In this document: positions 22,619-60,284 of the stretch, piece after piece | Layout of the letters: each line of letters starts with the position of its first letter | How positions within the stretch are numbered: the stretch's first letter is position 1 | Assembly: GCF_000348945.1 (NCBI RefSeq) | Contig: NZ_AOCK01000006.1 | Span: 124,001 to 188,000 of the forward strand | Source: Paeniglutamicibacter gangotriensis Lz1y | GTDB lineage: Bacteria > Actinomycetota > Actinomycetes > Actinomycetales > Micrococcaceae | Length of the DNA: 64,000 bases | Direction of reading: 5' to 3' | Translations under genes and position numbers: made by a program | The notes under the pieces: model-generated | Databases searched by the model: none | Seen by the model: the letters and a program-made list of their open reading frames with translations, nothing else | Told to the model about the DNA's origin: nothing

Positions 22619-22993
22619 GCTGGACGGGAAGGCCAGACGATCGCGTGCCACGCAAGTGGCCCGAGGAACGTCCGGGCTCCACAGAACAGGGTGGTGGGTA
22701 ACGCCCACTCGGGGAAACCCGCAGGCCAGTGCCACAGAGAATAGACCGCCCGCACTTGTGCGGGTAAGGGTGAAACGGTGGTGTAAGAGACCACCAGCGC
22801 TCCGGGTGACCGGAGCGGCTTGGTAAACCCCACCCGGAGCAAGGTCAGACAGACTACTGGGTTGTTCGCTCAATGTAGTCGGGTGGACCGCTTGAGGGTG
22901 TCGGCAACGACACTCCTAGATAGATGATCGTCACCGCGATTCGGGTAACCGACCGCGACACAAAACCCGGCGTATCGGCCCTCCCGTCCACTC
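22619..22993 (+). ncRNA. rnpB: RNase P RNA (class A)
   Basis: About 375 nt. The 5' TGGACGGGAAGGCC pairs with 3' GGCCCTCCCGTCCA to close P1. Universally conserved parts are visible: GAGGAACGTCCGGGCTCC (CR-I), CACAGAGAATAGACCGCC, GGGTAAGGGTGAAACGGTG, GGTAAACCCCACCCGGAGCAAG and, near the end, the AGATAGATGATCG segment. It provides the catalytic part of tRNA 5'-end maturation. The exact ends are estimated from P1. A terminator follows immediately. Confidence 0.96.
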
Positions 22994-23036
22994 AAAGCCG
23001 CTGCTTCCCTTGCAAACAAAGGGGAGTAGCGGCTTT
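22994..23036 (+). terminator. rnpB terminator / host-prophage boundary region
   Basis: AAAGCCGCTGCTTCCCTT pairs with AAGGGGAGTAGCGGCTTT (one mismatch and a G-U pair), ending in TTTTGTG. It terminates rnpB. Phage genes begin within 1 kb to the right, and no host gene is certain beyond this point, so the attachment core may lie here or in the rnpB 3' end (inference). Confidence 0.8.
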
Positions 23037-24017: not shown

Positions 24018-24437
24018 TTACTGCTCGTAACGCTCATCATCGGCAGTGGTGGGCTCGTGCGCGTCTGGGATAGGGTAGCCCGCGGCGTAGAACTGTGCCG
24101 CCACGGAATCCTCAAGCAGGTCCGGATCCGGTTCCTTCTCAACACCAGTGCCGAAGCCGACCTTCTTGAGCAGGTCGTTGATGCCCGGGATCGCCATGAT
24201 GCGGGTGACGATGGCACCGAGGGCCACGAGTACCGCAGACACGGCCAGCAGTGCCCCGCGTAGGGCCTCCGGGACGATGGGTTCCTGGATGATGGCGTCG
24301 ATGATCAGCGGGCCGAAGCCAACGACGGCGATCAGTGCCGCGACGATGACCGCGGCCGCCGTGCGAAGTGTTGCCTTGCCGGGGTGGGCCAGCTGGGTTG
24401 GTGTGCCAGTTGCGATGTGCTTTGCCATGGGGGTCAC
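24018..24437 (-). CDS. phage holin-like membrane protein
   Basis: Up to 139 residues with two strong membrane spans (TAAAVIVAALIAVVGFGPLIIDAII and LRGALLAVSAVLVALGAIVTRIMAI) and a charged acidic tail. Position directly after the endolysin in the lysis cassette suggests a holin. GTG 24437 overlaps the endolysin stop (GTGA); ATG 24428, three codons on, has GGAAAG well spaced and may be the true start. Confidence 0.75.
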   Translation of the reverse strand: MTPMAKHIATGTPTQLAHPGKATLRTAAAVIVAALIAVVGFGPLIIDAIIQEPIVPEALRGALLAVSAVLVALGAIVTRIMAIPGINDLLKKVGFGTGVEKEPDPDLLEDSVAAQFYAAGYPIPDAHEPTTADDERYEQ

Positions 24438-25294
24438 TTTCCGTTCTGGGTATTTTGGTAGCGCTGAAACGCCTTGATGGTTTCCTTGCCGAACTTCCCA
24501 TCAATCAGCCAACGCTTGGTATCGAGGTGGCCCTTCTTCGCAAGGAAGGACTGCAGGGCCTTGTAGGTGGCCTTGCCTGCCTTGCCGTCGATGACGTACT
24601 TGGACGACGGGTAGTAGCCGAGGCCGCGCAACCACTTCTGCAAGGCGACGATGGTGTAGTAACCGAAGTCCCCATCTACGGCGCGGTTGTAGTGTCCGAC
24701 TGCGCGCATGAGGATCTGGAAGGCCTTCACGGACCCCTTGCCCCAGATGCCGTCCACGGCGACGTCCTTGTAGTCGGTCGGGAACTTGGAGACCGTAGGC
24801 TTCGGTGTTCCGGCAGTCGGCTTCACGTTGCCGGTGACCTTGCCTCGCAGTTCCTTGTCCCACAGTGCGACGGTGTCCGCGACGCCGCGACGTGCTGCAC
24901 CCCAGGAGAACTCGACGTGCAGGTGATCGGTGTGCGGGTTGACTCCCGAGTACCGGTGCCAGCCCTTATTCTCGTAGCCGCCGGAGAAGATCTTACGGTT
25001 GAAGATGATGCACTGGATGCCCAGCTCTGCACTGTTGAGGCGCAGCTGCTCGGCGAACTCGTCATAAGCGGGGATGTCCGATGCCCACTTGAGGCCGAAG
25101 TCCACGGCACGCCACTCGCCATGTAGCGAGTTGGTGCGGCTGGAGCCGCGAACATTGCGGCAGTTGTAGATCCCGGAGTTCTGCGCGCCATGTTCCTTGT
25201 ATGCGGCGAGGAACCATGCCATGGCACCCTGCGCGCCGGATCGCGGGCCGGTAGTGCAAGTTTTTGCGCCGGTATATCCGTTGAAGATCGCCAT
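24434..25294 (-). CDS. phage endolysin (M15-like peptidase with two peptidoglycan-binding domains)
   Basis: A 286-residue lysin. The N-terminal 135 residues look like an M15/VanY-type peptidase: HGEWRAVDFGLKW and HTDHLHVEFSW supply the zinc ligands. The rest holds two PG_binding_1 repeats (VDGIWGKGSVKAFQILMRAVGHY and IDGKFGKETIKAFQRYQ, with a further IDGKAGKATYKALQSFL). It should cleave cell-wall peptides when released by the holin. No signal peptide is seen. Confidence 0.88.
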   Translation of the reverse strand: MAIFNGYTGAKTCTTGPRSGAQGAMAWFLAAYKEHGAQNSGIYNCRNVRGSSRTNSLHGEWRAVDFGLKWASDIPAYDEFAEQLRLNSAELGIQCIIFNRKIFSGGYENKGWHRYSGVNPHTDHLHVEFSWGAARRGVADTVALWDKELRGKVTGNVKPTAGTPKPTVSKFPTDYKDVAVDGIWGKGSVKAFQILMRAVGHYNRAVDGDFGYYTIVALQKWLRGLGYYPSSKYVIDGKAGKATYKALQSFLAKKGHLDTKRWLIDGKFGKETIKAFQRYQNTQNGK

Positions 25295-25457: not shown

Positions 25458-25488
25458 AGAAAAGCCACGCGGCGTGCGTGGCTTAGTT
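25458..25488 (-). terminator. hairpin inside the lysis cassette
   Basis: AAGCCACGC (25462-25470) pairs with GCGTGGCTT (25476-25484); read leftward it ends in TTTTCTT. It separates the two small membrane-protein genes from the endolysin and may reduce lysin expression. Confidence 0.65.
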
Positions 25489-25821
25489 AGTGTTTTCGTT
25501 CGTGGGAGGGTCGGGCGGCCTCTTGTCTCGGTGGCTCCGCTGCTCAGTGAAGATCGTGTACCCGAGCCGCCCAACAGCAATAATCAACACCACATACAAG
25601 GCGATATACACGTAGGGCCGGCCAGCGAACCCCGGAAAGAATGACGACGCCGCCGCCAAAGTAAGGATCGCTGACTGCACACCAAGTAAGCCCATCAGGA
25701 CACGGCCAGCAGGGAACCCCTGCCACCCACCACGGGTGATCCAGTGCCAGCCCAGCATCACCACAAGCGTCTCCAATAAGGCGGTGCCGATCAGGATCCC
25801 CGTCAGTGGTTGAATCGTCAT
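25483..25821 (-). CDS. phage membrane protein with three spans
   Basis: A 112-residue protein with three hydrophobic spans (residues about 8-30, 42-62 and 70-90) and a charged, Pro-rich tail (RSHRDKRPPDPPTNENTN). Its place in the lysis block suggests a role as a second holin or lysis regulator, but this is positional inference. ATG overlaps the previous stop (ATGA). Confidence 0.65.
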   Translation of the reverse strand: MTIQPLTGILIGTALLETLVVMLGWHWITRGGWQGFPAGRVLMGLLGVQSAILTLAAASSFFPGFAGRPYVYIALYVVLIIAVGRLGYTIFTEQRSHRDKRPPDPPTNENTN

Positions 25822-26024
25822 ACTGCGCCCCTTCCCTGGAACGTTCGTGTCAGTGACTCACTAAAATGGTTTCGTGCGTTGATTTTGCGTAGCACGGCGG
25901 ACTGCTCGCGTGCCGCTTCCAAACTTTCCAGTGCTGCCGTGTGCTCTGAGACGGCTTCACGCTTCATCGCTTGGGCTTCTTCCACGTCCACTTGGTGCGG
26001 TAAGAATCGAAGTAGGAACTTCAT
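25818..26024 (-). CDS. small phage coiled-coil protein
   Basis: A 68-residue, mainly helical protein (MKFLLRFLPHQVDVEEAQAMKREAVSEHTAALESLEAAREQSAVLRKINARNHFSES). Such proteins are common beside actinophage lysis genes; function unknown. Both ends use ATGA overlaps. Confidence 0.7.
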   Translation of the reverse strand: MKFLLRFLPHQVDVEEAQAMKREAVSEHTAALESLEAAREQSAVLRKINARNHFSESLTRTFQGRGAV

Positions 26025-26293
26025 CGGGGCTCACCGTCCCGAGCCTCCTGCACCGCACCCATAACCTTGATGACGGACTCCCCAACCATCTGCTGCTTGT
26101 TGATCGTCTGGGCCTGCACCGCGTTGGTTTCCCGCAACGTTTCCGCTGCGTCCTTCCATTCCTTCTTTGCGGTCACCATCACGTCATACATGGAGCGTGG
26201 GATGAGTTTGCCGGTGAGGATCAACCAGATTGCCAGCATGAGCAGCCCGTACGGGGTGAGGCCACCAATCGCGGCCCAAGGGATCTCATCAAT
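26021..26293 (-). CDS. phage protein with one membrane span and coiled coil, probable ATT start
   Basis: With ATT at 26293 as start the protein has 90 residues: IDEIPWAAIGGLTPYGLLMLAIWLILTG forms the N-terminal span, followed by a helical region (TAKKEWKDAAETLRETNAVQAQTINKQQ). The only in-frame ATG (26239) lies inside the span and lacks a ribosome site, while GGAGGTG (26307-26301) is well placed for the ATT, and a stop codon at 26302-26300 precludes a longer frame. The shape resembles a spanin-like or holin-accessory protein; role unproven. Confidence 0.55.
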   Translation of the reverse strand: MDEIPWAAIGGLTPYGLLMLAIWLILTGKLIPRSMYDVMVTAKKEWKDAAETLRETNAVQAQTINKQQMVGESVIKVMGAVQEARDGEPR

Positions 26294-26376: not shown

Positions 26377-26403
26377 GCGCCCGCCACAGATTGTGACGGG
26401 CGC
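26377..26403. terminator. hairpin between moron start and lysis cassette
   Basis: GCGCCCG-c-CACA / TGTG-a-CGGGCGC with a three-base loop. It lies in the 235-base gap 26294-26528 between divergent genes. It could stop antisense transcription coming leftward from the tail genes; no long T run is present. Confidence 0.45.
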
Positions 26404-26528
26404 GGGGGATTGAGCAATTCCGGCAGATTGTGTCACTGTCGGGGTTTCGTCAAATAGGGGTCTTTGTCTGGGTGCGGTAATCTATCAAAGAGTATTTGTA
26501 AACGACTTTCACTAAGGAGTTCGCTGAC

Positions 26529-26618
26529 GTGGACGCACAGGGCGTAATGCTTTATCTGGGTACGATCGTCGTCACTGTTGGTCTGCTGTGGATACTTCTG
26601 CCAATTTTTGCACTCTAG
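26529..26618 (+). CDS. 29-residue single-span membrane peptide
   Basis: GTG-started frame coding for VDAQGVMLYLGTIVVTVGL followed by LWILLPIFAL, essentially one membrane helix. A perfect AAGGAG lies nine bases upstream, and the stop is four bases before the polymerase start, which itself has no ribosome site. So the peptide is probably translated and coupled to the polymerase. Function unknown; it may stabilise the polymerase or merely deliver ribosomes. Confidence 0.6.
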   Translation: MDAQGVMLYLGTIVVTVGLLWILLPIFAL

Positions 26619-26622
26619 ATTC

Positions 26623-27984
26623 ATGAGTAAGTATTTGCCCCCGAAGCGCTTCGATGTCGGCAGGTTGGAGATACCTGGCGCGGTCCTCTGGATTGGGCTC
26701 GGCTTGGCCTACGGGTTTCTTGAGCCGGACCCAGAGAACCGTTTGGCCGCGCTCTCGTATCTAACCATGGGGTTTGGCGCATGGGTTTTTTTGGTTCATG
26801 GGCGCCGGATGGTGACTACGGCGGGGATCTTTTCTCTGTGTGCCGCGGTCTTCGTTGGGTACCCGGGCATTTACTGGCTCACAAATGGTAACGATGTTGG
26901 GTACATTGCCGATGCCGTTACAGCTGGGTATTTCTGTCTCGTTGCCATGTACTACATTTTCTGGCGGAGAATGAAACCACCAACCCTAGGGCCGGTGAAG
27001 CGGTCCACTGTGCGGGGGGCTGGAATGATCGGTGTTCTGTTGATGATTGTCGGAGCAGTAGCAGCTCGGGCCGGCGTTGGCAGTTCACTGGCAGCCCCCG
27101 CAGCGTTCGCCGGAGTGGTCCTCGTTTCGGCCGCATTCGTTATTGGAGGACGTCGCGGCTTCAAGCTCTGGGCGATGATGGTGTCCGGCGCGGCTGCACT
27201 GTTCTACGTGCAGTTTGTGTTCGTGGGTTTCGGGCGGCTCGTCCTTTCCGCCATGGCATTCTCCGTACTGTTCATCCTGACGATCCGGTTCCGCACCTAT
27301 TGGATCAAAGCGCTGACCCTCGTTGCCATTCCGCCCGCAATGATGTATCTCGTAGACCAGCGCGAAGAATTCGGCGTGGAAACCTTCGGCCAGGCACTTG
27401 ATGGAATCGGCTCAATCGTCGCGCCTCTTGAGCAGTTCGCCGTCATATTCCGTGACTTGGAGATGGTCACGCTCGCATGGGGCCACACCTTCTACGCTGG
27501 TGCTGTAACGCTGATCCCTTCGGCCATATGGCCTGATAAACCCGAGGGATTCGGGCTGGTCCTCGCTCGATTCTATGAACCAGCATTCGCGGACGTCGGC
27601 GGGACCTATGCTGCGCTGACACACGGTGAGTTCATCTACAACTTCGGCGCGTTCGGATTGCCCATCATGGTGATCGTCTTGGGCTGGCTCATCCGGCGGC
27701 TTGACCTTGGTTTCTTCCAAGCCGTGGCACGTGGCGCAAGTTCCAGACGTGCACTCCTGGCGATCGTTGCCTTCGCCATCATTGCAGGAGGCATGAGCGA
27801 CATCCTCTGGGGCGGCTTCCACCTGTTCATGGGTCGCGCCGGCATCCGGTTGCTCATCGTTTTCCTGATCGTCTTGACCTGGGGTGGGCTGGCCCACCGG
27901 GTCCTCATGCCGAGGCGCAGGTCGCCGGCGGTTAGGCCGGCGACCCTCCCCGCTAGGGGCGCTTCGGTTTCTGCTAGACGGTAA
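26623..27984 (+). CDS. Wzy-like polysaccharide polymerase (prophage moron)
   Basis: A 453-residue protein with about 10-11 membrane spans and a large loop containing IPSAIWPDKPEGFGLVLARFYEPAF, the (I/V)P...WPDKP motif of O-antigen/oligosaccharide repeat-unit polymerases. It should join sugar repeat units outside the membrane. It stands on the opposite strand between fibre and lysis genes, so it probably alters the lysogen's surface, as known for phage-coded Wzy proteins. Codon use is less GC-biased at the start than in its neighbours. Its 3' end overlaps the fibre gene by 11 bases. Confidence 0.78.
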   Translation: MSKYLPPKRFDVGRLEIPGAVLWIGLGLAYGFLEPDPENRLAALSYLTMGFGAWVFLVHGRRMVTTAGIFSLCAAVFVGYPGIYWLTNGNDVGYIADAVTAGYFCLVAMYYIFWRRMKPPTLGPVKRSTVRGAGMIGVLLMIVGAVAARAGVGSSLAAPAAFAGVVLVSAAFVIGGRRGFKLWAMMVSGAAALFYVQFVFVGFGRLVLSAMAFSVLFILTIRFRTYWIKALTLVAIPPAMMYLVDQREEFGVETFGQALDGIGSIVAPLEQFAVIFRDLEMVTLAWGHTFYAGAVTLIPSAIWPDKPEGFGLVLARFYEPAFADVGGTYAALTHGEFIYNFGAFGLPIMVIVLGWLIRRLDLGFFQAVARGASSRRALLAIVAFAIIAGGMSDILWGGFHLFMGRAGIRLLIVFLIVLTWGGLAHRVLMPRRRSPAVRPATLPARGASVSARR

Positions 27985-30193
27985 CGCCCATAGCGTCCGC
28001 CCACGCTGCGCCATTCCACCAAACGGGTCTACCTAGCGTGGTGAGGTAGTGCTGTTGCCCGACGATTGGCGCGGCGGGCAGGATTGACCCGGCGCTGTGA
28101 CCGAACGGCACCCATCCCGTGTTGCCGGTACCTGATTCTTTGACCCATGCGGTGGTTCCCTTCCCCCCGTTCCAGTTCGTGAAGATTGACCCGGCTGGCG
28201 CGGTGAGGACACCGTTGGGCGTGGTCCCGCCTCCTGCACTAATATTCAGCCCAGTGGCCGCGAGCGTGACCTTGGGGAAGATCAGTTGCCCGGCGTCCAT
28301 ATAGGCAACCTGCACGCCGCCGTGACGGAATCGAGTGAGGCCGGTGGGTGTCATTACGATTTCGGAGCGCGCCCCTACCGCCACGTCATCGCGGGTGATT
28401 ACGAGGTCCCCGTTTTCTTCCACCCGCAGCGTGTCCACTGCCGTACCGTCTGCCCTAGCAAAGGACAGTGGGTAACGGTTCGGGAGGATCTGCTTGGACA
28501 TGCCCCACGTTCCGACTTGATTCATAGGCATCTGCCAGTCCTGTGACACCGGGACGGTGACGATGGCACGCGGAAGACCCGACACAAGATTTACGAACGT
28601 CAGCCCGTTGTGGTCGAGCGCGTCAAACTTGTGCGACGGGAACGCGGGTTTGGTGTTGGAGTACACGCCTAGAGTGATGGTCCGTGGCATATGGGTAAAG
28701 CCACCGGACACTCGGCCACCGTCCTCGTCCACAATGTAGACCTCGTGCCCCCAGTTGCCCGGCGCGTTGGGATCGTTGACCTTCATGATGGTTTCCGATG
28801 CTACGGTAATCATCCACACACCCTGTCGAATCGGGAACGTGTAGTACAGGGATTTGCCGTTGACGGTGGCGACAACCTCAATGTCGGTCATACGGCCCGC
28901 GTAAAAATCCTCACGCTTGATACGGCCGATGCGTCCGTTGCGCTCGTTGTCCGTGCCCCAGCCAATGTAGTTCTCAAAGAACATGGGTCGCACACAATTG
29001 GGAGTATCCGAGCCAATCGCGATACCGAACGTTGCCCAGGTCGCCCCGTTGTCGTTGGAGCGCAACCACAATGGTCCGGTTTGGGCGAAGTTGGCAAGAT
29101 CGGAGAATGCGACATGGCAACCCTCGTAGGGGTCGTAAGTGACGGAGTGAATGTGCCCAACGTCGCCGCCGCTGGATACCGATGGGGACGCCCAGACCTG
29201 CGTGAAGTTCACCCCGTCGTTGGTGGAACGGTATATCTTATATTGCATGTTGTTGACGTTTCCGTATTCGGAAATAATCACCGAACCGTCGGTGCCTTCG
29301 GTGACGCCGGTTCCGTTGGTGAACGGCGGGAACTGGGTTGTGAACGTGTGCGTCCACGTTGCTCCGTCGTCGGTGGAACGCCACACCTTCGGGTTTTGGT
29401 TGGCCTGCGTCAGGATCGTTGCCTCAAATGCGAGCAATGTTCCGCTTGCCAGCTTCACCAGCGAGGAGATGAACCCCGGCAGAGTGCCGAGCGTCGTCCA
29501 GGTCTTGCCCCAGTCCAACGTCTTGTCCAGCTTCGGGAACCCCGTACCGTTGATGGTCTGCGATGCGTAAACGGTGGAGCCGTCCTGCGCCAGTGCCGTG
29601 CGGTAGAGGTCGGCCTTGGACTCATAGACCACCGCTGACGGGGACAGGTAGCGATTGTTCGCCACCTGCTTGGCGATTGGCTCGGCTGTCCCAACAATCG
29701 CGGCGGATAGTGCGGTCCCGGTGAGGCTTGCGGGGTCGTTGATTTTGCCCGCGACCATGGCGTCGGTGGGTGCTGTGGCTGTCGCCGCGGCCTGTACCGC
29801 GGTGTTCTTTGCTGCCTCGGTGGTGTCCACCCAGTTCTGCAGGTCGGCCTTGGTGGTCTCGGGCGGGATCGCCGTGGTGAAGCGGGGCAGGGTCGGGTAC
29901 TTCACCGCGGTGGTCCCGGTGGGAACGCCCACCATTTCCGACCAGCCCCTGCCGGACATGTGGTCTCGGAAGGTCATCCGGTATGCCCAGGCGGGCTCCG
30001 GTCCGGCGGGGGACACGTCAACGTTCTCCAGCACGGCCACACCGTTGCTGATCCCGATGGTCGTTGGCGCGGGGAATACGGTCTTCGTGCCGTCCTGGCG
30101 CATCGCGGTCGCCTCGATGGTGACCTCGCCGAAAAGGATCTCATGCGGCGCACCTCCGCCGCGGCGGGCGTCGATCTCAATATTGCGTCCCAA
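27974..30193 (-). CDS. phage tail fibre / receptor-binding protein with BNR (Asp-box) repeats
   Basis: A 739-residue protein. Residues 1-200 form the tail-attachment part (LGRNIEIDARRGGGAPHEILFGE). From about 215 to 400 there are at least three Asp boxes (VWRSTDDGATWTH, YRSTNDGVNFTQVW, LRSNDNGATWATFG), the signature of sialidase-like beta-propellers. The C-terminus has fibre-like Gly-rich segments and a short WWNGAAWADA end. Start is TTG 30193, with AGGAGG seven bases upstream; the earlier open frame is unsupported. It probably binds or cuts a host glycan. Confidence 0.78.
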   Translation of the reverse strand: MGRNIEIDARRGGGAPHEILFGEVTIEATAMRQDGTKTVFPAPTTIGISNGVAVLENVDVSPAGPEPAWAYRMTFRDHMSGRGWSEMVGVPTGTTAVKYPTLPRFTTAIPPETTKADLQNWVDTTEAAKNTAVQAAATATAPTDAMVAGKINDPASLTGTALSAAIVGTAEPIAKQVANNRYLSPSAVVYESKADLYRTALAQDGSTVYASQTINGTGFPKLDKTLDWGKTWTTLGTLPGFISSLVKLASGTLLAFEATILTQANQNPKVWRSTDDGATWTHTFTTQFPPFTNGTGVTEGTDGSVIISEYGNVNNMQYKIYRSTNDGVNFTQVWASPSVSSGGDVGHIHSVTYDPYEGCHVAFSDLANFAQTGPLWLRSNDNGATWATFGIAIGSDTPNCVRPMFFENYIGWGTDNERNGRIGRIKREDFYAGRMTDIEVVATVNGKSLYYTFPIRQGVWMITVASETIMKVNDPNAPGNWGHEVYIVDEDGGRVSGGFTHMPRTITLGVYSNTKPAFPSHKFDALDHNGLTFVNLVSGLPRAIVTVPVSQDWQMPMNQVGTWGMSKQILPNRYPLSFARADGTAVDTLRVEENGDLVITRDDVAVGARSEIVMTPTGLTRFRHGGVQVAYMDAGQLIFPKVTLAATGLNISAGGGTTPNGVLTAPAGSIFTNWNGGKGTTAWVKESGTGNTGWVPFGHSAGSILPAAPIVGQQHYLTTLGRPVWWNGAAWADAMGVTV

Positions 30194-30204
30194 AGGGGTT
30201 CCTC

Positions 30205-30543
30205 CTACGGTGTGACGACAGCGTCGTAAATGGCTTGGATCTGGGTCTTCATGGTGGGAAGGCTTGCCAGGGAAGTGGTGTGTGCCGCCTGCGTGGTGGT
30301 GATCCCATCCAGCTTCGTGGTGTGCACTGACTGGGTCGAGACGATGCCGGCCAGTGTGGTTTGCATGGCGATCAGCGCGGACTGGATTTCCCCGACATCG
30401 ACCTGCTGATCTGCAAGCTGGGCTTGGATGGCGTCCAGACGGGCGATGACGTCCGCAAGGGCTTCGATGGTGCCGGTGGCGTCGGCAGTGTATTCGCGGG
30501 CCGCTGCCATGGTGCGGAGCAGGGCGCTTGATGATGTGCCCAT
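30205..30543 (-). CDS. phage tail-associated coiled-coil protein
   Basis: A 112-residue helical protein with heptads (IEALADVIARLDAIQAQLADQQVDVGEIQSALIAMQ) followed by repeated TTLAGIVSTQSVHTTKLDGITTTQAAHTTSL, like a fibre shaft or trimerisation segment. ATG 30543 shares a base with the previous stop (TAATG). It is just upstream of the fibre gene. Function inferred from position. Confidence 0.65.
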   Translation of the reverse strand: MGTSSSALLRTMAAAREYTADATGTIEALADVIARLDAIQAQLADQQVDVGEIQSALIAMQTTLAGIVSTQSVHTTKLDGITTTQAAHTTSLASLPTMKTQIQAIYDAVVTP

Positions 30544-31055
30544 TACGCCGCGTCCACGGAGGCCATGCGCCACATGCCTTGGAAGGTGAAGGCTGTTCCT
30601 CCGGCGATGGTGGTGCCCGGGGCGACGGCGGCCAGTGCCATTTCCCCGCCGCTGTGGACGGCTGCGGCTGCCAGGGGGCCGGTGTGCCCGGTGGTGAGGC
30701 TCCCCATGTAGCGGGGGCGGAAGCCCTCATCGACCTGCCCAATGATGACGTTGGTGATGTTGCCGTTACCCGGCACGCTCACGGGCGCGCCGACATAGGT
30801 GAGGTTGATTTGCATGTCCACGTCCCGCCCCTCCCGGGAACAGGCGAAGGCCGTGCATTGCCAGTCGGCGGTTAGGGCCAGGACCCGGTCCACCTTGCTG
30901 GGCCCGGCAATCCAGTCCGTGGAATAGGGCTTGCCCGTGGGGCTCATGGCGTTGAGCAGGTCGGTGATGGTGGTGAACCATCCCCGGAACTGCCCAGCCT
31001 TGCGCATGGGTGAGGCTTGGGTGGGGCTGTCGGGGAATTGGTTTTGGATGGTCAC
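30543..31055 (-). CDS. phage minor tail protein
   Basis: A 170-residue protein (VTIQNQFPDSPTQASPMRKAGQF...) rich in beta-type sequence, ending AFTFQGMWRMASVDAA. GTG 31055 overlaps the previous stop (GTGA) with AGGAGG six bases before it; the open frame extends further but only into antisense-like residues. Neighbours on both sides are tail genes. No specific family recognised. Confidence 0.65.
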   Translation of the reverse strand: MTIQNQFPDSPTQASPMRKAGQFRGWFTTITDLLNAMSPTGKPYSTDWIAGPSKVDRVLALTADWQCTAFACSREGRDVDMQINLTYVGAPVSVPGNGNITNVIIGQVDEGFRPRYMGSLTTGHTGPLAAAAVHSGGEMALAAVAPGTTIAGGTAFTFQGMWRMASVDAA

Positions 31056-33274
31056 CAGGTGCCTCCTAGGTCTATGGCCCACTGATCGAAGTCTTCGAAG
31101 GTGGTGATGTTGTTGGCTGCCAGCCAGGTGTCGAAGGCCGCGAACGTGGTGATGGATTCGCGTTCCAGCCATGCGTCGAAGTCCTGGTATGCGACATCGA
31201 GCAGGGCCAGGTCAAGGTGCTGGGTGTATCCAGTGGAATCCCCAGCCAGACTGATCCCGCTGATGATGGCCTCGGTGCGTAGTCCGGTGTGGCCGTCGGT
31301 CAGCCGGATGACGTCGCCGATTTCCCGGGACAGATCCGGCTTCACCCGCACGGAGTTGATCACTGCCTTGGCCGTGCTGGTTTGCCCGACGAGCCAGTCG
31401 AGGATCCGCTGGGCGGCGTCCGCATCCTGCACCCATGCCCCGGCATCCAAGCTGATCGGGTTCAGTGCGTCCTCCACGGCGGGTCCGTGGCTGATGGTCT
31501 CCGGCTCCCCGGGGGCGATGTGCAGGCCGGTGCGCAGGATCAGGCAGGGGGAGCCGGTGCCGTCCACCAGCCAGAGGGTGCCGCCGGTGGCGTTGGTGAT
31601 GCTGATCTTCACCCGCGAGACCCCAGCCATCACCGCAGAGACCCGGATGGCATTGTCTGCCGGCCGCGCACCGGAACCGTCGGGGGATGTGGCTGCGGCC
31701 CAGCGGGACATGCGCCCGTCGGCGTACTTGGTGACCGACGGATCGGTGGGTGGCCACAATGGGACGAACGGGGAGAGCACGTTGGTGGTGCCGTTGATGT
31801 CCGCGTAGACGGTGACCGTCTTGCGGGCCGGGATCCGGATAGTCTCCGTCGATTCCCACAGCGTGCTCATCCCGTAGGAGGTCTCCACGTCCGTGGGGGT
31901 GTAAGTGAGCTCCACGCGGTCGGCGATCTCGCCCGGGTCGATCACCCACGCCAGATCCTCCAGTTTGTCCAGGGCCTCGATGGTCTCCACCGGGGCATCA
32001 GTGCCGCGCATCCGTTCCCCGTTGCGGTACACCAGCACACCGCCCGGAGTCATCCAAGCGGCGCCCATCGTCTTGGCCGCGATGTCCTGCACGACTTCCC
32101 ACGCGGTGACCTTCTCGATGCCGAAGGCCGCGTGGATCGGGGAGTATGACATGTCGATCTGGGCCTTTGGGGGGATCCAGATCCGGGGATCGTCCGCGGC
32201 GTGCAGCTGTATCCCGCGAATCCAGCGGCCCGTGGGAGACAAGGTTGTGTCGATGGTGGCGGTGTCGGTGCGGGAGCCCCACGGAGCCGAGCCGAAGGCC
32301 GCGGTGGCCGCGGCCGACCATGCCCCCGAGCCGCAGCGCACTCGCACCGCGAGGTTGTTGCCGGTGCGGGTGACCTCGGCCTGCACCCGGCGAATCGTTC
32401 CCGACGCCACCGGGTACGCGGCCGAGGCCAGCGTGGTGATCCCGGAGCGGACATCGAGCTTCGTGGAGGAGAAGTCGAAGACCGCTCCGCCGATGATGAT
32501 CCGCCCACCTGCGCCGGCCACGTCGCACGAGATATGGAACTTGTTCGGGACCACTGTGGACAGGCTGGCGTCGATGGACGAGCCCGGGCCGAGGCCCGCT
32601 TGGTGCTCTGCCGCCACCCACCCGGCGACGGTCGCCGTGATCGTGGATCCGCGGTCCGCCATCGTGCCCCCGCACAGCGGGACCGAGAGGAACGCGCTGG
32701 TGACCAGCGCGGGGGTCTGGTAGTAGCCGGTGGAGCGGGCGACCTGGTCGATGACCCACGAGGCGTCCAGCTCAAAGGGCGGTTCCGCGAAGCTGCTGGC
32801 CTTGGTGTTGTAGCGCCAGCGCAGGGTGAAAGGCTTCTGCATCCGGATCGGATCGCCGTCCAGCTCCAGATCCACAGTGGTGCTCAGGCTAGATCCGGCA
32901 ATGGGTGCCAGGTGGAAGCCGCCGAGGCGCAGCCCGTGGGCCTGCCCCACGCCGTCGTGCGAGGCGTAGAGCGTGCAGGCGCCACCCGGGCCCAGGTTCA
33001 GCGGGCCTCGCGCCCACGGTGTCAGCGGGGCTCCTTCGGGCTGGGCGAAAGACACGGACCCGGAGGGGATCGAGTGCCCGGACGCTGCCCGCACCTGCCC
33101 CGGCAATGCGGAGCCGGTCAGCTGCTGGGAGACCGACCACGAGCCGACCTCCGCAGTTCCCTGTGGCACGTCCCCGCGGGCCGGTGGCCACTGGCTTCCG
33201 TGCAGCTCCAGGAAGATCTCCGGAAGCGTTTCCACATCGCCCTCAAGGGGCCAGCCAGCTGGCTTTTCCTGCAT
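31052..33274 (-). CDS. phage minor tail protein, large
   Basis: A 740-residue protein. The central part (about 380-560, AWEVVQDIAAKTMGAAWMTPGGVLVYRNGERM... IADRVELTYTPTD) resembles tail-hub/baseplate proteins of siphophages that carry phage_tail-like domains; the C-terminus (TTFAAFDTWLAANNITTFEDFDQWAID) contains two short repeats. It lies after the tape measure and a Dit-like gene, the usual place for the tail-tip protein. Identity beyond tail tip is not certain. Confidence 0.72.
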   Translation of the reverse strand: MQEKPAGWPLEGDVETLPEIFLELHGSQWPPARGDVPQGTAEVGSWSVSQQLTGSALPGQVRAASGHSIPSGSVSFAQPEGAPLTPWARGPLNLGPGGACTLYASHDGVGQAHGLRLGGFHLAPIAGSSLSTTVDLELDGDPIRMQKPFTLRWRYNTKASSFAEPPFELDASWVIDQVARSTGYYQTPALVTSAFLSVPLCGGTMADRGSTITATVAGWVAAEHQAGLGPGSSIDASLSTVVPNKFHISCDVAGAGGRIIIGGAVFDFSSTKLDVRSGITTLASAAYPVASGTIRRVQAEVTRTGNNLAVRVRCGSGAWSAAATAAFGSAPWGSRTDTATIDTTLSPTGRWIRGIQLHAADDPRIWIPPKAQIDMSYSPIHAAFGIEKVTAWEVVQDIAAKTMGAAWMTPGGVLVYRNGERMRGTDAPVETIEALDKLEDLAWVIDPGEIADRVELTYTPTDVETSYGMSTLWESTETIRIPARKTVTVYADINGTTNVLSPFVPLWPPTDPSVTKYADGRMSRWAAATSPDGSGARPADNAIRVSAVMAGVSRVKISITNATGGTLWLVDGTGSPCLILRTGLHIAPGEPETISHGPAVEDALNPISLDAGAWVQDADAAQRILDWLVGQTSTAKAVINSVRVKPDLSREIGDVIRLTDGHTGLRTEAIISGISLAGDSTGYTQHLDLALLDVAYQDFDAWLERESITTFAAFDTWLAANNITTFEDFDQWAIDLGGTW

Positions 33275-58353: not shown

Positions 58354-58525
58354 TTCGTTTCCTTTGTTCGTTCTCCGTAGGAGGGTTGGTAGTACCAGCC
58401 GAAGACGGCTGCATCAGGTCGGCAGTCGAGGCAAAACTGTTTGCCGGGGGTTCGTTCGGGATATGCCGGATGCCGCACCGGCCACACACGCGGGTCTTGT
58501 CCCGTCGCCGAGTCTCCGTGGTCAT
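58350..58525 (-). pseudogene. small zinc-ribbon protein with a frameshift
   Basis: ATG 58525 (overlapping the methyltransferase stop) opens MTTETRRRDKTRVCGRCGIRHIPNE. At a run of five C (58447-58451) the frame should shift by -1 to read PPGKQFCLDCRPDAAVFGWYY, giving a second CxxC and a stop that overlaps the next ATG (ATGA). The 176-base span is one short of a multiple of three. Either one C was lost (mutation or sequencing) or ribosomes shift. Confidence 0.7.
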
Positions 58526-60042
58526 ACGGCCACCGACCTCGACGCCAGGGACAGCGCAGCCACGATGAACAAATCTCGGGCGGCGGGCGGGGTGACGGCG
58601 TTGCCTGCCTGCTTGACCTGCTCTCGCTTGTTCCCGGTCATGATGTAGGACTTGGGGAAGGCCATGCCCGCGGTGATTTCGTAGGGTTCGAGCATCCGGA
58701 ATTCGCAGTCCTCGACTTCGGGGACGGTCCATTCGGTGAGGCCCGCGTGGTTGCCGCCCGCGCTGATCGTGCGCAGCGGGTCCGATACCGGTGCGGCGGA
58801 GCCTTGGATCTGTTCCGGTGCAGTGCCGCGCATGGTGGTGATCATCGCGAACCGGTCGGTGGTGCTGATCGTCGGGATTGCTTTCGACGTTGGGTGCATG
58901 ACGCCGTTGCCGTAGTACTCCATCAGCAGCGAGGAAGTGGCCGCGGGGGAGGGCGGCATCAAGAAGCCGGTCTCGTTCCGGGTTGTCTGCGTTCGCATGA
59001 CATCCTCAACAGGCTGCGCCACCTTCCCCTCCCGACCTTCCACCGGAACTAACAACGACCGGGTGTAGCTGGTCGTCTGCGTCGGGAACGGCTCAGCATT
59101 CACCGGGGCAATGATCTGCGAGCCTCGCACCGCGTCGATGCTCACCGGATGCTTCCCGTACTTCTCGAGCCCTGCCCGTATCCGGGCCATGGTCTTCTCC
59201 ACCAGTGGCTTCTTGCGGTCGCCGATGCGCTGGCCACGAAGGTCCCAATCGATGGCCGCGGCTGCCGGGAGCCATCCCGGTTCGATGATGGCGTTCTTGC
59301 ACCGCGTATTCGGGCATCGATAGGCGTATTGCGCCTTGTATCGTCCCCACCGGTAGGCGGGGTTCTTCCACGACTGGATGCAGCGCACCGTCTCGTCGCA
59401 CGTGGGGCAGTGAGCCAGCGGCATGAGCATGTCAAAGTCAGGTTTCGGGTTGCCCTTGAGCCAGAACATCACGTACATGCGATCACGGGACTGCGGGGCA
59501 GGGAGCCCGCCGAGCTGCGCGTGCATCGAGTTCATGTAGACGATGTGGTGGTCGTAGCCGAGTGCTTCCATGGCGAACAGCCAGGCGTCGAACATGACCC
59601 ACTTGGCGGCGTCGACAACGTTCTCCGTGATGATCAGCTTGTACGCGTGCTGCTCGGCGAACCGGGGTACGTCCCACATGGTTGCCCGGGACTTCTCCGC
59701 GGCCTCATCAGCGAGGCTTTCCCCGAATAGGTCGGGCTGGTTACTGATGCGCTTACGCCCCTTGGCTACCGAGTGATTCGTGCACTCCGGGCTGGCCCAC
59801 AGGATGTCCGAAGAGGCGATGTACCGGGGATCAGTGACCTGAATGTCAGCCAGCACATGGTCAGTGTCGGGGTGGTTAGTGTTGTGGGTTTCGATGGCGC
59901 GGGCCCAGTGGTTCATGGCCGTCTTCACAGTCACGCCGGGCACTTCCAGCGCACCGGTGGATGATCCGCCAGCACCGCAGAACATATCGGTGACGGTCAG
60001 TTCCGCCATTGACTCAAGGATGCTTCGATCGAGGGTGTTCAT
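58522..60042 (-). CDS. C5-cytosine DNA methyltransferase
   Basis: A 506-residue protein with C5-methylase motifs: DMFCGAGGSSTGAL (I, SAM), SPECTNHS (IV, catalytic Cys; the usual Pro-Cys is Glu-Cys here), ITENVVDAAKW (VI), QSRDRMYVMFW (VIII) and KQAGNAVTPPAARDLF (X). A Cys-rich insert (HCPTCDETVRCIQSW...CPNTRCKNAI) follows motif VIII and may bind zinc. No restriction enzyme is adjacent, so it probably protects phage DNA. ATG 60042 overlaps the previous stop. Confidence 0.92.
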   Translation of the reverse strand: MNTLDRSILESMAELTVTDMFCGAGGSSTGALEVPGVTVKTAMNHWARAIETHNTNHPDTDHVLADIQVTDPRYIASSDILWASPECTNHSVAKGRKRISNQPDLFGESLADEAAEKSRATMWDVPRFAEQHAYKLIITENVVDAAKWVMFDAWLFAMEALGYDHHIVYMNSMHAQLGGLPAPQSRDRMYVMFWLKGNPKPDFDMLMPLAHCPTCDETVRCIQSWKNPAYRWGRYKAQYAYRCPNTRCKNAIIEPGWLPAAAAIDWDLRGQRIGDRKKPLVEKTMARIRAGLEKYGKHPVSIDAVRGSQIIAPVNAEPFPTQTTSYTRSLLVPVEGREGKVAQPVEDVMRTQTTRNETGFLMPPSPAATSSLLMEYYGNGVMHPTSKAIPTISTTDRFAMITTMRGTAPEQIQGSAAPVSDPLRTISAGGNHAGLTEWTVPEVEDCEFRMLEPYEITAGMAFPKSYIMTGNKREQVKQAGNAVTPPAARDLFIVAALSLASRSVAV

Positions 60043-60284
60043 GCTGCTATCCGTCCGTAGTTTCGTTTTCGGGTAATGGCCGGGGCAGTAGCGACCACGC
60101 ATTGCTCCGCGCCTTGGGAACCTGGCTGTGTGCGACCATCAACGACGTTGAACACGGCGGGCCCGGTGATCGTGGCCCCGTGCCGGGTGGCCACCGCGGG
60201 GAGGTCCTGCTCAGCTTCGAACACGAGGTCAGCGAACGGGATCGTCGTGTCGGTGATCGGCCAGACTGCTTGGAACATGGTCAT
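60039..60284 (-). CDS. small phage protein
   Basis: An 81-residue protein (MTMFQAVWPITDTTIPFADLVFEAEQDLPAVATRHGATITGPAVFNVVDG...). ATGA overlaps at both ends. Not recognised. Confidence 0.62.
   Translation of the reverse strand: MTMFQAVWPITDTTIPFADLVFEAEQDLPAVATRHGATITGPAVFNVVDGRTQPGSQGAEQCVVATAPAITRKRNYGRIAA

Follow-up and report, generated by a model that had tools for sequence, protein, structure and literature searches.

The locus described here raises the question of why a prophage of Paeniglutamicibacter gangotriensis Lz1y (Micrococcaceae) carries a gene for a polytopic membrane protein, preceded by a very small frame, between its tail fibre and lysis genes. The window, i.e., the whole stretch of 64,000 nucleotides that was analysed, belongs to contig C6 of the 4.32-Mb genome of this strain. 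In a first-pass annotation, the large gene had been described as a prophage-coded Wzy-like polymerase which could change a surface glycan and exclude other phages, and the small frame as coupled to it. The present analysis indicates that a role of the two-gene cassette in conversion or exclusion is probable. Its more specific interpretation as a convergent lysogenic-conversion module, serving seroconversion and superinfection exclusion and including an inhibitory peptide, is proposed tentatively, by analogy with known phage units.

Both frames were found on the plus strand as they had been placed, the 29-codon frame at 26529–26618 and the gene of the 453-residue protein at 26623–27984 (ATG at 26623), with the WPDKP motif at residues 303–307. 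They constituted a single plus-strand unit antisense to the late genes, and the described orientation opposite to the fibre and lysis genes was correct, as the neighbours, like the other structural genes of the prophage, were encoded on the minus strand. The prophage location was corroborated by an exact 37-bp direct repeat, from which the ends of an element of about 45.0 kb were located by sequence. The left copy (no strand) was identified at 22963–22999 and the right one beyond the window, at the window-equivalent positions 67953–67989 (L004:4953–4989). A tyrosine integrase gene (66786–67925) was present just inside the right end, with the repeat 27 bp behind the gene.

On the lysis side of the cassette, all genes on the minus strand, the first was a small phrog_4565 gene (26021–26239; PHROGs), followed by a small DUF7620 gene (25818–26024; Pfam), a holin gene (25483–25821; PF23778 Phage_holin_2, E = 2e-14), an endolysin gene with peptidoglycan-binding domains (24434–25294; Pfam/PHROGs) and, downstream of it, a phrog_4316 family gene with a predicted membrane segment (24018–24437). 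A strong terminator-like hairpin of 12 pairs, oriented for minus-strand transcripts and detected by a consensus scan only, separated the cassette from the lysis genes (26377–26403, minus strand); late transcripts would need to read through this hairpin unless the lysis genes are served by a promoter of their own. On the other side, the tail fibre or spike gene (27974–30742, putative start, minus strand) was convergent with the polymerase gene and overlapped its 3' end by 11 bp. The 'sialidase-type repeats' ascribed to this fibre corresponded to four Asp-box-like motifs, and the Pfam BNR_2 match remained below the cut-off (E = 0.013), which makes that wording only loosely right. The tail protein gene upstream of the fibre (31052–33274, minus strand) had a 100% identical counterpart in the prophage copy from IMG/VR (2537561926_000001). 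That copy spans window-equivalent positions 27974–67925, from exactly the fibre stop to the integrase, with the cassette and lysis genes trimmed off; such trimming suggests that cargo of this kind between fibre and lysis genes may be under-counted. Elsewhere in the prophage, the start of a large frame (58522–60102, minus strand) resembled, by eye, a cytosine-specific DNA methyltransferase.

The sequence libraries were nearly silent on the 453-residue protein, and its kind was recognised from the genomic contexts of its relatives. The NCBIfam model TIGR04370 matched residues 136–361 with E = 0.0022 and 17.1 bits, under its curated 40-bit cut-off; among seven relatives scanned with the same model, one scored above the cut-off (L021, 56.4 bits), five below it and L002 had no match. 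No Pfam family at the gathering score (neither Wzy_C, PF04932, nor EpsG, PF14897) and no PHROGs family was assigned, no relative was detected in 50,697 phage records or in viral contigs, and the sequences of solved structures gave no match at E ≤ 1. Genomes with matches, the window's own included, amounted to 3 of 99 among relatives, 6 of 395 in the family (1e-8) and 9 of 396 in the order (1e-5). The first search of genome contigs returned no locus and the second 11, i.e., two already known and nine partial matches. Six relatives were near full length (L002, L003 and L074–L077; 23–28% identity), and each of them adjoined glycan-synthesis genes, such as those for Wzx-type flippases (PF01943), sugar transferases (PF02397), glycosyltransferases and Wzz/ATPase co-polymerases. 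This count covers the six loci named, with L047–L050 and L080–L088 left out, and the surroundings of the distant relatives L020–L022 were judged by eye only. Most neighbouring genes were assigned by eye; ten were given to Pfam, of which two, flippase-like genes in L020 and L021, had no match. Across ten aligned sequences, residues R247, G287, P299, P304, P307, G342, G345 and R409 were invariant, around the IPxxIWPDKP stretch.

An AlphaFold model computed from the ten sequences (pLDDT 73.5, pTM 0.78) was rich in membrane helices, with a long loop region around residues 250–330; it was used for the structure searches in place of an earlier, poor model from three sequences (pLDDT 49). WaaL (O-antigen ligase) and the SEDS proteins RodA and FtsW form one fold group with Wzy. 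The first six of 50 VIA rows were FtsW (8p1u, 8bh1), WaaL (7tpg) and RodA complexes (6pl6, 6pl5, 8tj3), in the order FtsW, FtsW, WaaL, RodA, RodA, RodA, aligned over approximately residues 128–422 with Z of 9.1–7.7, values which, being under about 13, are not decisive for helical proteins. A Z of 8–9 can reflect an arrangement common among helical proteins. Foldseek alone, run on the PDB and viral models, returned no match at E ≤ 0.001. Taken with the TIGR04370 match below the cut-off and the glycan loci of the relatives, these alignments upheld the earlier identification, and the protein is very probably a Wzy-type repeat-unit polymerase, though a member of neither TIGR04370 nor Wzy_C.

The 29-codon frame starts with GTG and encodes a single-helix membrane peptide, a putative polymerase inhibitor and/or leader. 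Its Shine-Dalgarno sequence AAGGAG (26514–26519, plus strand, 6 nt) is located nine bases 5' of the GTG, and no match of four or more bases was found at a usable distance in the 20 bases preceding the polymerase ATG, as had been described. Only 4 nt separate the stop of the peptide frame from that ATG. To set this geometry against chance, the 222 bases 5' of the ATG were shuffled 5000 times with dinucleotides preserved, and frames of 18–80 codons ending no more than 15 nt from the ATG were counted, the criteria being chosen post hoc. Such a frame with a Shine-Dalgarno match of at least 5 occurred in 201 of 5000 shuffles, and 137 of 5000 had one whose 19-residue hydropathy reached 1.8 or more; all these features occurred together in 12 of 5000 under the same post hoc criteria. 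The coupling geometry is rare in shuffles, in line with the coupling suggested earlier. In a common scan for small frames (20–80 codons, Shine-Dalgarno ≥ 4, hydropathy ≥ 1.6) of the window, phages D3 and epsilon15, and an IMG/VR locus, L039, the slots between fibre and lysis genes of D3 and epsilon15 yielded the known inhibitors and nothing else. The window yielded four frames, among which the 29-codon frame was the top one in both Shine-Dalgarno match and hydropathy; one other match sits within the polymerase gene itself.

The idea that the peptide inhibits the host polymerase is advanced tentatively, on the analogy with those inhibitors, and a small membrane peptide at the position of the epsilon15 inhibitor may be an effector, beyond a mere coupling device. 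The main alternative is that the phage carries a polymerase without an inhibitor: the 29-codon frame would be a translational leader only, its peptide inactive, and the phage polymerase would simply out-compete that of the host. The 4-nt gap and the missing ribosome site of the polymerase fit the termination-reinitiation expected of a leader, and in L039 an EpsG-type polymerase occupies the fibre-lysis gap with no companion frame in the same scan. A pure leader, however, need not encode a strongly hydrophobic helix (19-residue hydropathy of 2.43 for the window peptide vs. 2.61 for D3 Iap), and in each of the two known seroconversion units (D3 and epsilon15) the polymerase comes together with an inhibitor that is a small membrane protein. 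A leader without further function is considered rather unlikely.

Mimicry of Wzz by the peptide was also considered at the sequence level and rejected. Shuffled peptides equalled its score against the two host Wzz-like proteins in fractions of 0.72 and 0.43, i.e., it was no closer to them than shuffles, which leaves an Iap-type mechanism (mimicry of the second membrane helix of Wzz) without sequence support and agrees with the leader-only alternative. The corresponding fractions were 0.083 for Wzx, 0.29 for the candidate host polymerase, 0.39 for the phage polymerase and 0.31 for D3 Iap, and the comparison with D3 Iap thus revealed no detectable similarity. No homologue of the peptide was found, and no PHROGs family was assigned to it.

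The gap between fibre and lysis genes was surveyed in 20 loci (L008, L023–L026, L038–L041 and L063–L073), of which 19 were distinct, L041 and L072 encoding the same proteins; L027–L031 and L033 were left out. In seven of the 20 (L023, L024, L038, L063, L064, L069 and L073), the phrog_4565–DUF7620–holin order of the window was also present, and in L063 and L023 the gap was empty. Recognised glycan-type genes were present in the gap of at least 5 of the 19 distinct other loci (L026, L038, L039, L041/L072 and L073), a lower bound without an enrichment test, as 11 hand-picked gap proteins were given to Pfam and frames of L064, L008, L023 and further loci were left out. A weak Asn/NAD-synthase match in L040 was not counted as glycan-type, and L065–L067 and L070 represent other phage types with a poorly definable gap. 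The L034/L038 phage (74% identical capsid) encodes a hexapeptide acyltransferase in the corresponding slot, on the antisense strand as in the window. The gap of L026 contains a TupA-like ATP-grasp gene (E = 3.2e-22), and rhamnosyl transferase genes accompanied by DUF6270 were identified in L041/L072 (antisense, E = 3.1e-12) and in L073 (E = 1.8e-11), the holin gene of L073 containing stops. The DUF6270 proteins beside the rhamnosyl transferases of these two prophages (L041:3050–3775, E = 2.8e-47; L073:7342–8067, E = 5.6e-62) may have a glycan-related function.

These data bear on a second alternative, according to which the glycan polymerase benefits the host through a surface change, adhesion or drought tolerance, with no exclusion role, and the slot merely tolerates disruption of the late genes. 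The unrelated genes, or none, in the slots of related loci and the ordinary chromosomal exopolysaccharide genes among the polymerase relatives are compatible with it. The glycan-type genes in at least five of the 19 other distinct loci speak against it, as does the resistance of D3 lysogens to superinfection described in PMC4815439, and this alternative appears improbable. It is quite improbable that the cassette is silent or decaying cargo, acquired of late and either unexpressed or lacking its substrate in the host: a consensus scan found no sigma-70-like promoter for it (0 vs. 1.1 expected), no second copy, and so no sign of selection, was found in the three collections and sampled genomes searched, and its G+C content is 58.7% vs. 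63.3% in the window, but the polymerase is encoded at full length, with the invariant residues of its relatives conserved, and the strong ribosome site has been retained.

Host genes suited to such a polymerase were identified on contig C3. The cluster L018 encodes Wzx (PF01943, E = 1.7e-13), an initiating sugar transferase (Bac_transf, E = 2e-70), two sulfotransferases and a Wzc-like protein (kinase match, E = 7e-9), and with these genes the host should make repeat units that a foreign polymerase could use. A 466-residue membrane protein of this cluster (L018:1421–2821) may be the native host polymerase; it had no family match and no match to the Wzy_C protein of contig C2. The latter protein (PF04932, E = 1.2e-14) is encoded at the start of contig C2 (L019:727–8175), clustered with a probable phage-type integrase (by eye) and a TupA-like ATP-grasp (E = 1e-26), and the group is perhaps a second mobile glycan island.

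If the cassette is a conversion module, the lysogen would make an RNA running antisense to the late genes, and translation would begin at the 29-codon frame with its strong ribosome site. After terminating at the peptide stop, ribosomes could re-initiate at the polymerase start, 4 nt downstream. The polymerase would use lipid-linked repeat units flipped by the host Wzx and would join them with a different linkage or chain length. The helix of 29 residues would adjoin the host polymerase or co-polymerase and block its competition. The altered glycan would then cease to be a receptor for the Asp-box fibre of the phage itself and for similar phages.

The layout parallels two seroconversion units of phages of Gram-negative hosts, and this match strengthens the ideas of expression, glycan change and exclusion: as in both, a polymerase gene of a temperate phage lies antisense between the fibre and lysis genes. 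In Salmonella phage epsilon15 (AY150271.2), the tailspike gene is followed by the beta-polymerase gene, convergent with it, then by those of the alpha-polymerase inhibitor, a small membrane protein, the holin and the endolysin. The convergence of tailspike or fibre with the polymerase, the antisense position of polymerase and small frame relative to the late genes, and the lysis genes on the other side of the cassette are common to epsilon15 and the window, a gene-for-gene match. In both, a small membrane protein is encoded directly 5' of the polymerase in the same operon, with a gap of 12 nt in epsilon15 and 4 nt in the window. However, epsilon15 has a Gram-negative host, its polymerase belongs to the Wzy_C type (PF04932, E = 4.4e-10) and shows no detectable similarity to that of the window (hhalign E 0.5, probability under 1%), and its inhibitor has 66 residues and two annotated membrane segments, whereas the window peptide has 29 residues and one.

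Pseudomonas phage D3 (AF165214.2) has the order fibre, antisense iap, sense acetylase gene (oac), antisense wzy-beta with orf30.5, and endolysin. Like the window, it encodes a Wzy and a very small peptide with one helix (31 aa) on the antisense strand between fibre and endolysin, but iap is located on the far side of wzy, with the opposite-strand acetylase gene in between, and not directly upstream. The D3 polymerase is weakly Wzy_C (E = 0.00017), with no detectable similarity to the window polymerase (hhalign E 0.088, probability under 1%). PHROGs places the D3 Wzy-beta family (phrog_19842; L007:23421–24581) in DNA, RNA and nucleotide metabolism as 'polymerase', though it is a sugar-chain polymerase. 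Iap and Wzy-beta are named as responsible for the superinfection resistance of D3 lysogens in PMC4815439, and the 31-residue Iap is reported in PMC12004945 to act as a mimic of the second Wzz membrane helix. By analogy, the window cassette, if functional, would work like the D3 and epsilon15 units; descent from them is not supported by sequence.

Other relatives share fewer features. The prophage polymerases wzy1Ph and wzy2Ph of Acinetobacter baumannii, as presented in the available portion of PMC13228068, are, like that of the window, located near a tailspike depolymerase; they change the capsule linkage, and the native Wzy is reported there to be suppressed, with an inhibitor suggested. They differ in acting on a Gram-negative capsule, in belonging to the EpsG and Wzy_C families and in that no inhibitor gene is named in that portion. 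The Wzy encoded on the chromosome of Arthrobacter castelli DSM 16402 (L002/L079), the relative with the lowest E-value (3.4e-38; 27% identity), has the conserved IPxxIWPDKP and HGExxYxFG stretches in common with the window polymerase, but its gene is part of an exopolysaccharide locus, where it follows a Wzx-type gene after 4 nt, with no small frame between. In L039 (IMG/VR contig 2706795028), the gap between fibre-like and lysis genes also contains a polymerase gene, of another family (PF14897 EpsG, E = 2.5e-47), on the late-gene strand and with no small membrane frame alongside.

No phage unit of Wzy plus inhibitor for a Gram-positive host was found among the matches listed, in the CC-licensed PubMed Central literature, with few subscription papers covered. 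The cassette may be the first polymerase-plus-inhibitor seroconversion unit in a phage of such a host, with a Wzy of unrelated sequence and a peptide blocking the host polymerase without recognisable Wzz sequence. If this is true, the order and orientation arose independently at least twice, and the fibre-lysis gap is a general, exchangeable slot in which temperate phages keep a gene re-coding the very glycan targeted by their fibre. Genes on the opposite strand in this gap could then be read as glycan-changing cargo, with tiny membrane frames missed by gene callers, and the peptide, at 29 residues, would offer a lead in the form of a naturally occurring polymerase inhibitor. Phage-driven re-linking of surface polysaccharides, known from the O-antigen and capsule of Gram-negative bacteria, would in that case reach the actinobacteria.
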